A stretch of DNA of 25,371 nt from positions 1 to 25,371 of the IMG/VR virus record IMGVR_UViG_3300029319_000456; one strand, given 5' to 3'. Made by a program: the position numbers and the translations under genes. Positions 2,532 to 8,054 of this stretch are shown piece after piece (position 1 is the first letter of the stretch; each line of letters begins with the position of its first letter). The notes under the pieces were generated by a model, which searched no databases, was not told the DNA's origin, and saw nothing but the letters and a program-made list of their open reading frames with translations. This stretch comes from a virus.

Positions 2532-2560
2532 ACTATAACAAGAAAGGGGGGTCTTGTCAA
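2532..2560 (-). promoter_or_regulatory. sigma70-type promoter (TTGACA-17-TATAGT) with -35 in a terminator loop
   Basis: TTGACA lies at 2560-2555 and TATAGT at 2537-2532 on the minus strand, with a 17-base spacer. It reads into the 2501 gene and the downstream hydrolase operon. The -35 hexamer occupies the loop of the hairpin at 2543-2569. Confidence 0.85.
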
Positions 2561-2569
2561 CCCCCCTTT
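2543..2569 (-). terminator. intrinsic terminator hairpin overlapping a promoter
   Basis: The minus strand reads AAAGGGGGG, a nine-base loop TTGACAAGA, then CCCCCCTTT followed by CTTGTT. This is a perfect nine-pair stem with a T-rich tail. It would end transcripts arriving from the 2700-3372 genes. The plus strand also has a T-rich tail (TTTTATT), but no plus-strand gene needs it. Confidence 0.75.
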
Positions 2570-2699
2570 TATTCCCAACAATTACAACGATTTATCAAGT
2601 CACATTTCTCATCATAAAAACGAATCGTTGCGAATCGTGGGAAAGTGATTCGGTGGCTTTTGATGATGAGAGAGAGAGGTGCCAACCGAATCAAACTGT
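2570..2699 (-). other. non-coding stretch with hairpin (2647-2692) and CGAATCGT repeats
   Basis: This 130-base stretch has no convincing reading frame. GCCAACCGAATC at 2681-2692 and GATTCGGTGGC at 2647-2657 form an 11-pair stem with a single bulged base. The loop, read on the minus strand, is CU-rich (CCTCTCTCTCTC). Two CGAATCGT direct repeats follow at 2621-2640. It lies between the stop of the 35-residue gene and the terminator, so it would be the 3' untranslated end of that transcript. Confidence 0.5.
2621..2640. repeat. direct repeat CGAATCGTTG / CGAATCGTGG, candidate operator
   Basis: Two 10-base copies lie head to tail on the plus strand, differing at one base. Exactly 60 bases separate them from the TTGACA box at 2555-2560. 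The same core repeat is found at the same distance from the promoter at 3402-3430, which suggests a protein-binding site serving both. Confidence 0.55.
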
Positions 2700-2807
2700 T
2701 TAATCCATACAACCTTTCATCAATCCCTCTGTCGTACATGGATCTTCTATGTATCCAACAATCATTATACAGGCAATGATAACCAATATCGGAACTATGT
2801 TATTCAT
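2700..2807 (-). CDS. 35-residue small membrane protein
   Basis: The ATG at 2807 overlaps the stop of the upstream gene (TAATG) and has GGTGGAG seven bases before it. The product starts MNNIVPILVIIACIMIVGYI, essentially one membrane helix, and ends in a short tail with two Cys (EDPCTTEGLMKGCMD). The tail, outside or in the periplasm, could form a disulfide. The function is unknown. The ribosome site, coupling and single clean helix favour a real gene. Confidence 0.6.
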   Translation of the reverse strand: MNNIVPILVIIACIMIVGYIEDPCTTEGLMKGCMD

Positions 2808-2998
2808 TAACGAACTCCACCAATAGGACAGACAGTCTTTATGATATCGAAAGGTTTGTCTGCAAGAAAGATCTGACACTGAAAACCAGTTTTCTTTGCA
2901 ATCTTGATTGCCTTTTCTAGTGTGTCAGTCGCACCACAAGTATAACCAAAACTAGTGAGGAACACTTCGTACTTAACATTTGGTGCTTTTGGTATCAT
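2807..2998 (-). CDS. small hypothetical protein
   Basis: This is 63 residues from the ATG at 2998, which has AGGAG at a good distance; an in-frame TTG at 3004 is too close to that site. The sequence alternates beta and helix (KYEVFLTSFGYTCGATDTLE, AIKIAKKTG, FQCQIFLADK) and has three Cys. I recall similar short proteins in T4-like marine phages without a known role. It is downstream of the 3372 gene with an 11-base gap. Confidence 0.65.
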   Translation of the reverse strand: MIPKAPNVKYEVFLTSFGYTCGATDTLEKAIKIAKKTGFQCQIFLADKPFDIIKTVCPIGGVR

Positions 2999-3009
2999 AA
3001 ACAAATCTC

Positions 3010-3372
3010 CTATTTCAAATACTCAGGGCCAGTCCAAGCAATACGGAAACCACCCTCTAAAACATTACCACGAGCGGCATTACGAGCAGGAGCATTAAAT
3101 CCTGCAGCCTTCAACAAGTCACCTTTTTTGAACTTCTTGTCGGTATCGACCGCAACAACAAATCCCCAAACTTGTCCACCTTCTTTTTGCAAAATCTTTG
3201 CATATTTTGGGCCAGTCTTAACTACCCAACCCTCTGCAAACTCTTTGTTCATTTTAACACGAACTTCGGTATCTGCTGGCATCCACTGACCATAATCATA
3301 GATTGCAGCATCAATCATGTTCTGAATACCATCTTCTAAATTATCAAACTGTTTCTGGATCTGAATAGTCAT
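3010..3372 (-). CDS. conserved marine-phage protein, unknown function
   Basis: The protein has 120 residues from the ATG at 3372, preceded by GAGAAAGAGAG. The upstream in-frame TTG at 3390 lies inside that purine tract and is not preferred. The N-terminal half is helical (LEDGIQNMIDAAIYDYGQW). The C-terminal half is beta-rich, with KYAKILQKEGGQVWGFVVAV, KFKKGDLLKAAGF and NAARGNVLEGGF, a pattern I recall from many T4-like marine phages. No enzymatic motif is visible. A strong promoter at 3402-3430 gives it its own transcript. Confidence 0.75.
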   Translation of the reverse strand: MTIQIQKQFDNLEDGIQNMIDAAIYDYGQWMPADTEVRVKMNKEFAEGWVVKTGPKYAKILQKEGGQVWGFVVAVDTDKKFKKGDLLKAAGFNAPARNAARGNVLEGGFRIAWTGPEYLK

Positions 3373-3401
3373 TTTTTCTCTCTTTCTCAATGTTACTACT
3401 C

Positions 3402-3430
3402 ATATTACCAGATGATTTACTATATGTCAA
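3402..3430 (-). promoter_or_regulatory. sigma70-type promoter (TTGACA-17-TAATAT)
   Basis: TTGACA lies at 3430-3425 and TAATAT at 3407-3402 on the minus strand, with a 17-base spacer. It is placed about 30 bases before the start at 3372. It shares the 60-base-upstream repeat arrangement with the promoter at 2532-2560. Confidence 0.85.
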
Positions 3431-3490
3431 CCCCATATCCAAAACATTGTTTTCACTAGACTTTTCAAACCCATCTTTTTGGGATTTTTG

Positions 3491-3518
3491 CGAATCGTGC
3501 GAATCGTGAGAATCACTG
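3491..3518. repeat. direct repeat CGAATCGTG x2 plus AGAATCACT, candidate operator
   Basis: Two exact nine-base copies abut on the plus strand, followed by a diverged third unit. The first copy starts exactly 60 bases beyond the edge of the TTGACA box at 3425-3430. A similar double repeat stands at the same distance from the 2560 promoter. Confidence 0.55.
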
Positions 3519-3585
3519 GGGTTTCCAGACCATGTTTGTGACCTTCGTCTATTTGAGAACACAGACCTCTGGATAGGTGTTACCC

Positions 3586-4095
3586 TCATGCGTCTGCAAC
3601 CAATCCACTAGCAGAACGACTTGCCTGTGGATATACGTCTGGTTCTGGTATCATAAAGTTATCATCCCAACCAAATGCTTCCTTTACCACAGCTGCAGAT
3701 AATCCTTTATAGACTTGATGCAACTTTTTATCTTTCGCATTGACAAGAAGTTTTGCCTCACTTTCGTGCAATCCCTCTAACATCTGAAAGAACATATTTT
3801 CTTTCTGATGTTGTTTAGTCACGTTATCACCACCCTCGATAAATCTCCACAGTTTTTTTGCCTCTTGTGCCAACACAGTATGTTCTGTACCAGCAGGAGC
3901 TTCATTCGGTGTATAAGGAACATCCCCAGAGGGGAATACCCATTTCTTTGTTGGATCAAATGCAGCCTTGAGTAACATCCTCAATGAGTCTGTATTGTGT
4001 TCTCTAAGAATTGCAACTTTTTGTGATTTAGTTTTTGCTTTGTGTACCTTATCTAATACTTCAGAAAAAAGTAAAACGTAAGTTTGTTCTGCCAT
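3586..4095 (-). CDS. DUF6433-like conserved phage protein
   Basis: This 169-residue protein fits a family I recall as DUF6433 in T4-like marine phages: a SEVLDKVHKAKTKSQKVAIL start, then WVFPSGDVPYTPNEAPAGTE, a MFFQMLEGLHESEAKLLVNA helix, and YKGLSAAVVKEAFGW. The function is not known. The helical, DNA-metabolism-neighbour context next to RNase H suggests a replication or transcription accessory role, but this is inference. The start has AGGAG and lies two bases past the RNase H stop region. Confidence 0.8.
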   Translation of the reverse strand: MAEQTYVLLFSEVLDKVHKAKTKSQKVAILREHNTDSLRMLLKAAFDPTKKWVFPSGDVPYTPNEAPAGTEHTVLAQEAKKLWRFIEGGDNVTKQHQKENMFFQMLEGLHESEAKLLVNAKDKKLHQVYKGLSAAVVKEAFGWDDNFMIPEPDVYPQASRSASGLVADA

Positions 4096-6052: not shown

Positions 6053-6456
6053 TTTATTTTTTTCTCCCCATAGGCACCATAATAGTCATCACAATAGTCC
6101 CCATGTTTTAGATAATGTTTTAGATGTCTTATATATCCTTCTGCACTATGATACTTTGCCTTTGCACCTTTGACATCTTTTCGCATTTCGTATCTCAAAG
6201 TGGACATCAAATCTTTCTGGGACTTGATCCAACTCTTAACATTTTTTGCAGATAACACATGGTCATCATCTAGTGCGAGAACAGAATGATGTATTGATTC
6301 ATTCTTTGCTGGTTTCCTTGCAGCACGAGCCTTCGCAAGACGTTCTGCTGCAGCAACCTTTTGTTCTGGTGTCATGGGTTTCCTTTTCTTTTTAGGTTTA
6401 GGTTGAACCCATCCATCATTAGTAGTTGTTGATGCCACTATTTTTTTTCTACTCAT
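6022..6456 (-). CDS. conserved basic phage protein, unknown function
   Basis: This 144-residue, Lys/Arg-rich protein begins with a disordered basic tail (KPKKKRKPMTPEQKVAAAER, LAKARAARK), then has a SIHHSVLALDDDHVLSAKNV segment and a helical part ending in a His/Tyr-rich tail (GDYCDDYYGAYGEKK). It is a recurring T4-like marine phage protein without an assigned function. The basic tail suggests nucleic-acid or ribosome contact; the immediately upstream gene is bS21. It overlaps that gene by 8 bases. Confidence 0.75.
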   Translation of the reverse strand: MSRKKIVASTTTNDGWVQPKPKKKRKPMTPEQKVAAAERLAKARAARKPAKNESIHHSVLALDDDHVLSAKNVKSWIKSQKDLMSTLRYEMRKDVKGAKAKYHSAEGYIRHLKHYLKHGDYCDDYYGAYGEKKIKWQTITPKGM

Positions 6457-6670
6457 TAGGCCATTGTCCTTGTTCCTTGAGTTTATCCACTTTCTTCAAC
6501 CACCTTCTTCTACCAGCAGCTCGTTGAAGTCTCTTTTTTTCACCTTTACTTCTAAAGGCAGTTCGTTCTCTCAGTTCGTTGAAGACACCCTCAGTTTGCA
6601 TACGTTTCTTTAGAACTCGCAATGCACCATTGAGGTCATCTCCACGAACTGTTACTTTTAATCCAGACAA
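6449..6670 (-). CDS. rpsU: phage-encoded ribosomal protein bS21
   Basis: The protein aligns by eye with bS21: VTVRGDDLNGALRVLKKRM near the start, then EGVFNELRERTAFRSKGEKK and a basic tail QRAAGRRRWLKK. bS21 sits on the 30S platform and helps initiation. I place the start at a TTG (6670), giving 73 residues, the usual bS21 length: AGGA lies six bases before it, and it starts ten bases after the lipoprotein stop. An ATG at 6694 has no ribosome site, and a frame to 6751 would overlap the lipoprotein gene by 71 bases. Phage bS21 could replace the host copy and bias translation. It is known in pelagiphages, whose role for it is still inferred. Confidence 0.85.
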   Translation of the reverse strand: MSGLKVTVRGDDLNGALRVLKKRMQTEGVFNELRERTAFRSKGEKKRLQRAAGRRRWLKKVDKLKEQGQWPNE

Positions 6671-6680
6671 AGTTTTTCCT

Positions 6681-7355
6681 CTATTCTGCCGCATCAACAA
6701 CTTTGTTGATTTCAGTTTCAATGTTTGACATTGATAAAGCCTGATCTTCATCTTTTGATGCGTCTACTTCATTTTGAAGTTCTTTCCATGCGTTAGTAGA
6801 ACGAATCTTACCATAGACCATACGATCTTTCATCATACGGTTCATAATAATCTTACGAGCCTCATCCTCTGAATACTCAAGTAAAACATATGCACGAAAC
6901 TGTGTTCCTGTTGGATATATCTCCATCTCTTTTGGATTGTAACCAGCAACATCAACTGATGCAATCACATTCTTTGTGACCTTCTCAACCTCTGACATTG
7001 TGGTTGCAGACACATCATCATCTGTACCAAGTCGTGTTACAAATGTTTTCATCATTGCATCCAACTTACCATTGATACGATCTGCAAGAGTGTATTTTGC
7101 GTTGAGTGTCGCCATGTCAATAGACAATTGCAAGTCTGGTGACTGTGCAGTACCAACACTATAAATTGACTTTTCGTCAGTTGGTAATGTTGTGAACCAA
7201 GATGGAACTGTCTTAGCTGCAGCCTCTACCTTTTCTTGTTTATACTCAACAGATGAGGTATTTAACATCTGTGTCGCATCTGGATTTTTAGAACAAGCAC
7301 CAAGTGCAAGAACACTTCCTAATACTCCAACAGTTACATAATTTAGATTATTCAT
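6681..7355 (-). CDS. LPP20-like lipoprotein
   Basis: This 224-residue protein has a lipoprotein signal: a short hydrophobic stretch with the lipobox LALGAC, Cys21 being the lipidated residue. The mature part resembles the LPP20 family (PSWF near residue 52, YSVGTAQSPDLQLSIDMATL, then AKYTLADRI), followed by a region with AYVLLEYSEDEARKIIMNRM. It should be anchored in the outer or inner membrane facing the periplasm. Similar genes occur in other marine T4-like phages. The role is unknown; exclusion or envelope stabilisation are speculation. Its start overlaps the 44-residue gene by one base (TAATG). Confidence 0.8.
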   Translation of the reverse strand: MNNLNYVTVGVLGSVLALGACSKNPDATQMLNTSSVEYKQEKVEAAAKTVPSWFTTLPTDEKSIYSVGTAQSPDLQLSIDMATLNAKYTLADRINGKLDAMMKTFVTRLGTDDDVSATTMSEVEKVTKNVIASVDVAGYNPKEMEIYPTGTQFRAYVLLEYSEDEARKIIMNRMMKDRMVYGKIRSTNAWKELQNEVDASKDEDQALSMSNIETEINKVVDAAE

Positions 7356-7503: not shown

Positions 7504-7794
7504 TTAACTACCACTATACAACAAACTTAGTATTCTGTCAAGTCTATTTTCATTAGAAGTGTAATGATTTATATAATCATATGTACTAACCACTGGTGGC
7601 CGTTTGTACTTGACTTGATCTGTTACTGTTGGTTCTAACACCAGAATAGGTTTAGACCCTTTACAAACATATTCTGTTTTGGATGACAAAATTTGTCCAG
7701 CATCATCGAGTGTTACTGTTTTTTCATATTTACAATCTTGTGCGTATGCATTTAACGAAAATAATAATGCACAACTAAGAACTAAATATTTCAT
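7504..7794 (-). CDS. small exported protein
   Basis: The 96-residue product starts with a clear signal peptide (MKYLVLSCALLFSLNAYAQ, cut after AYA). The mature part is about 77 residues with two Cys (one in AQDCKYEKTV, one in EYVCKGSK) likely to form a disulfide in the periplasm. No family is recognised. The start overlaps the previous stop by four bases (ATGA). Its last 40 bases contain a promoter for the next transcript. Confidence 0.7.
   Translation of the reverse strand: MKYLVLSCALLFSLNAYAQDCKYEKTVTLDDAGQILSSKTEYVCKGSKPILVLEPTVTDQVKYKRPPVVSTYDYINHYTSNENRLDRILSLLYSGS
7513..7541 (-). promoter_or_regulatory. sigma70-type promoter (TTGACA-17-TATAGT)
   Basis: TTGACA lies at 7541-7536 and TATAGT at 7518-7513 on the minus strand, with a 17-base spacer. 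It lies within the 3' end of the exported-protein gene. It would drive the small membrane protein, the lipoprotein and bS21. Confidence 0.85.
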
Positions 7795-7997
7795 ACATAG
7801 TCACTCCAGAACTCACCCCAGAGTTCTTCTACAAATTCTAGTTGTTCATTTGCAGACATATGTGCAATATCATTCCAACACTTATCTCTTGTAAGTGCCA
7901 TGTGAAGTTCTGTGATATGTTCACAACCACCAATCCTAAGATTTACTGAATTGATAAACTGTTCTTCACAGTCCATTACATAACTTGACATTCCCAT
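7791..7997 (-). CDS. small hypothetical acidic protein
   Basis: This 68-residue acidic protein has three Cys (CEEQF, GGCEHITELHMAL, RDKCWNDIA) and a Trp-rich tail (VEELWGEFWSDYV). No domain is recognised. The start at 7997 has AAAGAGG at a good distance and is the first gene after the promoter at 8026-8054. The gene ends in an ATGA overlap with the exported-protein gene. Confidence 0.65.
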   Translation of the reverse strand: MGMSSYVMDCEEQFINSVNLRIGGCEHITELHMALTRDKCWNDIAHMSANEQLEFVEELWGEFWSDYV

Positions 7998-8025: not shown

Positions 8026-8054
8026 ATCCTACCACGATTCGGAAATGATGTCAA
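8026..8054 (-). promoter_or_regulatory. sigma70-type promoter (TTGACA-17-TAGGAT)
   Basis: TTGACA lies at 8054-8049 and TAGGAT at 8031-8026, with a 17-base spacer. The spacer holds CGAATCGTGG, the same core as the repeats near the promoters at 2560 and 3430 but on the other strand. The -35 box contains the TGA stop of the nuclease gene. Confidence 0.65.

Follow-up and report, generated by a model that had tools for sequence, protein, structure and literature searches.

Paired GATTCGC repeats and a reversed spacer copy point to a previously undescribed gene-control system in T4-like phages

The sequence analyzed here, referred to as the window, is a 25 kb fragment of viral DNA (IMG/VR record IMGVR_UViG_3300029319_000456, positions 1 to 25,371). 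Its primase, RNase H and other genes assign it to the T4-like phages. For the proteins searched, the nearest isolates are Kyanoviridae infecting Pelagibacter and Methylophilales, with at most 44-49% protein identity. The window also encodes a ribosomal protein S21 (6449-6751, minus strand; Pfam 9.6e-11), which was considered as a host marker and proved uninformative, its best phage match being the Methylophilales phage Melnitz at 45%. All of the features described below lie on the minus strand.

One tandem of the element YGATTCGC (2621..2637) consists of two CGATTCG units, at 2637-2631 and 2627-2621, with a 10-bp period. Sixty bases (2620-2561) separate it from the TTGACA box (2560-2555) of a sigma70-type promoter, TTGACA-17-TATAGT with a TG-extended -10 (2532..2560), and this gap ranges from 59 to 61 in close relatives. 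The -35 box lies, in the window and in relatives, within the loop of an intrinsic terminator (2543..2569; AAAGGGGGG-loop-CCCCCCTTT), the helix of which is 100% paired in relatives, so that the end of one transcription unit overlaps the start of the next. The terminator is in turn part of a conserved structured RNA (2543..2703), located at the 3' end of the p126 unit in the phages of this group and comprising a P1 hairpin with a CU-rich loop, a pseudoknot between that loop and a strand further downstream (8-10 bp, in 18 of the 19 members), a P3 helix and the terminator. The window copy has a folding z of -6.5, and a covariance model finds 19 loci (18 distinct sequences) at E < 1e-12, some of them from unrelated queries. 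Covariation extends to 11 pairs and 32 cells changed on both sides, a level reached by none of 500 shuffles, the alignment being fitted to the structure such that these counts lean towards it. No Rfam family matches the window RNA at its gathering threshold (the best sub-threshold model, sraA, scores 23-33 bits versus 56), and the RNA is absent from five Kyanoviridae isolate records. A role for the CU loop as an anti-Shine-Dalgarno antisense was rejected, as complementarity at the starts of 44 genes (11%, versus a background of 6.5%) was not judged to be above background. The 2621 repeats sit in the 5' arm of P3, and relatives of the RNA exist without the tandem. In the clade of the window, then, DNA and RNA constraints overlap in this arm, and its extended P3 pairing may be partly an effect of the tandem itself.

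The second tandem (3491..3506) has CGATTCG units at 3506-3500 and 3497-3491, a 9-bp period, and is again separated by 60 bases (3490-3431) from a TTGACA box, at 3430-3425. This box belongs to the sigma70-type promoter TTGACA-17-TAATAT (3402..3430; 17-nt spacer, TG-extended -10) of p126, a gene with a weak match to DUF7717 (3010..3372) and the commonest target of the element. A third, degenerate unit, GATTCT (approximately 3514-3509), lies upstream of the pair, and two A-tracts about 10 bp apart follow the tandem. The 3491 repeats fall in frame within the C-terminal codons of a small conserved ORF (MRVTPIQR..., 3344..3589) whose 3' end overlaps the p126 promoter. Over the first 20 codons of this ORF, pS is 0.14-0.82 and pN 0.02-0.31, meaning that amino acid changes are few and silent ones many. 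The 60-nt intervals in the window also contain coding or RNA sequence under other constraints.

The third site is a single reversed copy, CGAATCG (8035..8041, of the form CGAATCRTG), inside the 17-nt spacer of the promoter TTGACA-17-TAGGAT (8026..8054). That promoter is located upstream of a small acidic gene following RusA (7791..7997), whose family is called VQE here; in related phages, the matching gene is preceded by the tandem form. The repeats, the TTGACA promoters, the equal 60-nt spacings and the lone reversed copy CGAATCGTG (8041-8033) are all present as given in a preliminary description of this DNA. With one mismatch or fewer, CGAATCGTG has six matches in the window versus 2.0 expected, a count reached by one of 100 shuffles, and CGATTCG occurs five times versus 0.4 expected. 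The other strong promoters of the window, at 615, 7541 and 11580, lack GATTCG in the 100 nt upstream of them. Over the whole window, GANTC sites are scarcer than expected (128 versus 182, counting both strands).

The overlap of the repeats with an ORF and an RNA had at first been judged to make the equal spacings a coincidence, a judgement overturned by the recurrence of the tandem in related phages. A scan of the full set of viral contigs for tandem YGATTCGC (the unit as defined on the promoter strand) placed 50-72 nt before TTGACA, with the gap free within those limits, returned 79 stretches. The gaps of the 21 non-redundant promoters having a -10 box are 51 (one), 60 (seven), 61 (three), 62 (three), 68 (one), 69 (three), 71 (two) and 72 (one). 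Thirteen therefore fall at 60-62 nt, six at 69-72 nt and one at 68 nt, and none at 52-59 or 63-67 nt. Matches lacking a -10 box have scattered gaps. The binomial probability is approximately 2e-7 for gaps of 60-62 and 2e-8 for gaps of 60-62 or 69-72, with windows picked after the data were seen, although the 60-62 class had been predicted by the two sites noted earlier. When the 50-72 limit is lifted, 60-62 and 69-72 still account for most pairs, and 51, 76, 91 and 92 for one each. Tandem GATTCG pairs in loci that had been fetched for other reasons precede promoters by 60, 60, 60, 61, 61, 62 and 69 nt, and the intervening sequence differs among them. To illustrate, orthologs of the RusA-like gene revealed an unrelated promoter whose TTGACA follows GATTCGCTTGATTCG at exactly 60 nt. 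The spacing of the tandem to the promoter is, by this comparison of sequences, not a coincidence but helical phasing maintained across unrelated intervening sequence.

The phased signal appears specific to the pair and to its sequence. Promoters with a lone GATTCG show no preferred position, unlike the tandem pairs. Of 18 hexamers compared at gaps of 59-72, GATTCG alone is strongly enriched (28 observed versus 6.4 expected, an excess that comes partly from loci fetched by the tandem scan itself), while GAATCG, GACTCG, GAGTCG and 14 others are near expectation or at most about twofold above it. The units are head-to-tail with a period of 8-11 bp, and positions 2-6 and 11-14 after the second unit are A-rich, as in curved DNA. 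If transcription starts about 35 nt past the first base of the -35 box, the tandem would be centered near -104 or -114. In tblastn searches, 66 of 80 tandem loci have a gene in common with the window, so the arrangement belongs mostly to one phage group; the carriers are uncultured, mostly marine viruses of bacteria. A preliminary suggestion had been to search other genomes for such pairs. They are found in viral contigs but in none of 398 Pseudomonadota genomes, and a BLAST search of a phage collection gave no clear match. Likewise, relatives that keep a promoter without the repeats had been named as an argument against a shared regulator. Some such relatives exist (p126 relatives L012-L017), yet elsewhere the arrangement turns up again with its spacing unchanged. 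The same holds for repeats inside genes, in that one tandem does lie in a conserved ORF but in related phages the tandem sits at 60-61 nt in different surroundings. In L024-L057, L216, L710, L766 and L790, the stretch from the tandem position to the -35 box contains another recurring block, AATCAATGACTTA or its reverse complement AAGTCATTGATT, sometimes within a terminator loop. The L216 upstream regions contain inverted pairs (CGAATCG followed by GATTCG) with the proximal copy at approximately 60-63 nt, suggesting that the distal unit may have either orientation.

At least 119 stretches contain the spacer form, TTGACW-N7-CGAATCRTG-N-TA, many with an ORF start shortly downstream, compared with 7 for a spacing altered by 2 nt, a shift that also breaks promoter geometry and so is not by itself proof of specificity for CGAATC. 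A class degenerate for GANTC was set aside, as the three CGABTC variants total 108 stretches and the three non-GANTC control variants, CGAAVC, at least 120, leaving GANTC specificity unsupported. In a gene-anchored set, CGAATC occurs in 4 of 63 promoter clusters, not above some other hexamers, so that its excess in the spacer is calibrated only in part. The form is absent from 228 loci of two control scans, and none of 12 isolated phages contains a match to its core. Use of the spacer form by hosts was likewise considered and set aside, since the 109 matches in a scan of genome contigs, many in Clostridia and Chloroflexi and few in Alphaproteobacteria, read as chance occurrences on strong promoters. 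A 61.9 kb viral contig (L213/L238) carries four spacer-form CGAATCRTG promoters on one strand and has no match to the window RNA model.

Stronger evidence for the spacer form than the spacing-shift control comes from the identity of the genes that carry it. Among 41 distinct p126 upstream regions, nine have the tandem, five have the spacer form and 19 have a promoter without the element. The corresponding tandem and spacer counts are five and four for VQE, three and one for CobT, one and three for CobS, and two and one for a metallopeptidase. In at least five gene families, then, phages differ in which of the two forms they carry, and no promoter in the classified sets has both, the classification being based on loci collected partly by motif scans. 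A sixth family, of short WEY/WEF proteins, has the spacer form in L018 and the tandem in L783. Both forms also occur in single contigs, at different genes, in the window, L216, L256 and L800, and many orthologous promoters have neither.

These observations suggest, with good though not complete confidence, that a DNA-binding protein reads YGATTCGC and controls a small regulon in a T4-like, mostly marine phage group. The units, their GATTCG specificity, the helical phasing and the sharing of gene families between the two forms are legible in the DNA itself. In the first form, the protein would occupy two head-to-tail sites with a period of 8-11 bp, centered at about -104 or -114 on one face of the helix, and the phased A-tracts that often follow the tandem would bend the DNA toward RNA polymerase. 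In the second, it would occupy a single reversed site flanked by a consensus -35 and an extended -10. The original proposal of one regulator bound at fixed spacing gains from the recurrence of the tandem at unrelated promoters, 60-62 or 69-72 nt ahead of TTGACA. Its extension to both forms is favored by the spacer copy recurring on the same gene families; at least five families with either form make one GATTCG-reading regulator likely, and we infer a single protein. The regulator is probably encoded by the phage, an origin favored by the absence of the tandem from the 398 Pseudomonadota genomes. From the upstream site it would act as class I activators do. Position and A-tracts suggest activation, although the near-consensus core makes repression possible. 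The further proposal of activation from the upstream position and repression from the spacer finds no support; gene families swap forms, which makes one sign for both forms the simpler reading.

In class I activation, CRP-type sites lie at helical steps upstream of the -35 box. The sites described here likewise recur at steps of roughly one turn of the helix, well upstream of a sigma70 promoter, with peaks at 60-62 and 68-72 and nothing between. Unlike CRP sites, they are head-to-tail YGATTCGC units with a period of 8-11 bp and no CRP-like palindrome, and the -35 box is a consensus one. T4 middle promoters, in which a MotA box at -30 replaces the -35 box, offer another comparison, namely a regulator of a promoter subset in a T4-like phage. 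By contrast, all of the promoters considered here have a TTGACA consensus, and their site differs in sequence and lies at about -104 or in the spacer. Regulator-site motifs also cluster in the genomes of alphaproteobacterial phages whose genes are controlled by CtrA (PMC9437464), but the motif here is different, and the same study reports that GcrA-type sites in isolate genomes lack positional asymmetry.

A repressor could instead bind both forms, occluding polymerase in the spacer and acting from the tandem via looping or contact so as to shut off strong early promoters. The promoters already approach consensus unaided (TTGACA, 17 nt, extended -10), a protein sitting in the spacer would block polymerase, and the same gene families carry both forms. 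Since a phased site at about -104 or -114 together with A-tracts is more typical of activators, and no second operator for a loop was found, we regard repression as a real but somewhat doubtful possibility.

The host may also be the reader. GcrA is a sigma70 cofactor that acts on CcrM-methylated GANTC through the motif TGATTCG or YGAKTCK (PMC7987155), and GcrA sites both within and away from the core promoter are reported to activate (PMC7987155, PMC3667746). CcrM would methylate GANTC, GcrA would activate from methylated YGAKTCK, and the phage genes would be tied to host methylation. The units (YGATTCG, with CGAATCR as the reverse complement) fit the core YGAKTCK as well as GANTC and match the extended GcrA motif, the related isolates include a Pelagibacter phage, and TTGACA-N7-CGAATCR is found in Alphaproteobacteria 21 times versus six for a backward control, about threefold. 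Unlike GcrA/CcrM promoters, however, the tandem is fixed at 60/70 nt and tolerates T alone at the variable base (not the full K, G or T, nor A or C as read on the other strand), and only GATTCG is positioned there, not GAGTCG or GAATCG. A GcrA gene (PF07750) is found in none of 25 phage records and a CcrM-type gene (PF01555) in one of 20, which is weak evidence given that many records are fragments and that a host copy could serve. The tandem is missing from all 398 Pseudomonadota genomes, and another isolate relative infects Methylophilales. This makes control by host GcrA/CcrM unlikely.

It is decidedly improbable that the tandem and the spacer site serve two different proteins and share GATTCG by chance. 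The forms do differ in orientation, in copy number (two versus one) and in flanks (GATTCGC versus CAYGATTCG), but at least five gene families carry either one, never both at one promoter, and both are present in the same contigs. That the repeats are by-products, as hairpin arms at 2621 (within P3 of a covarying RNA, with gaps of 59-61 in the window clade) and codons of a conserved small protein at 3491, equally spaced by chance, is very improbable, as unrelated promoters lacking this RNA and ORF also have the tandem at 60-62/69-72 nt and the gap histogram, with its empty positions, already contradicts it.

A literature search for GATTCGC together with phage and direct repeat found no paper, and the paired tag and its spacer copy point to a gene-control system not described before. 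In a more far-reaching version that is itself unlikely, a phage-encoded regulator of this T4-like, mostly marine group might read GATTCGC, which contains the host CcrM site, in two interchangeable forms, such that expression of its regulon would hang on helical position and possibly on methylation of the infecting DNA. Almost nothing is known of how T4-like phages of uncultured marine bacteria control transcription. With a fixed, phased site and a set of target genes, a regulator can be searched for and tested even when no phage is in culture, and the exchange of upstream tandem and spacer site within the same gene families constitutes a natural experiment in promoter evolution.
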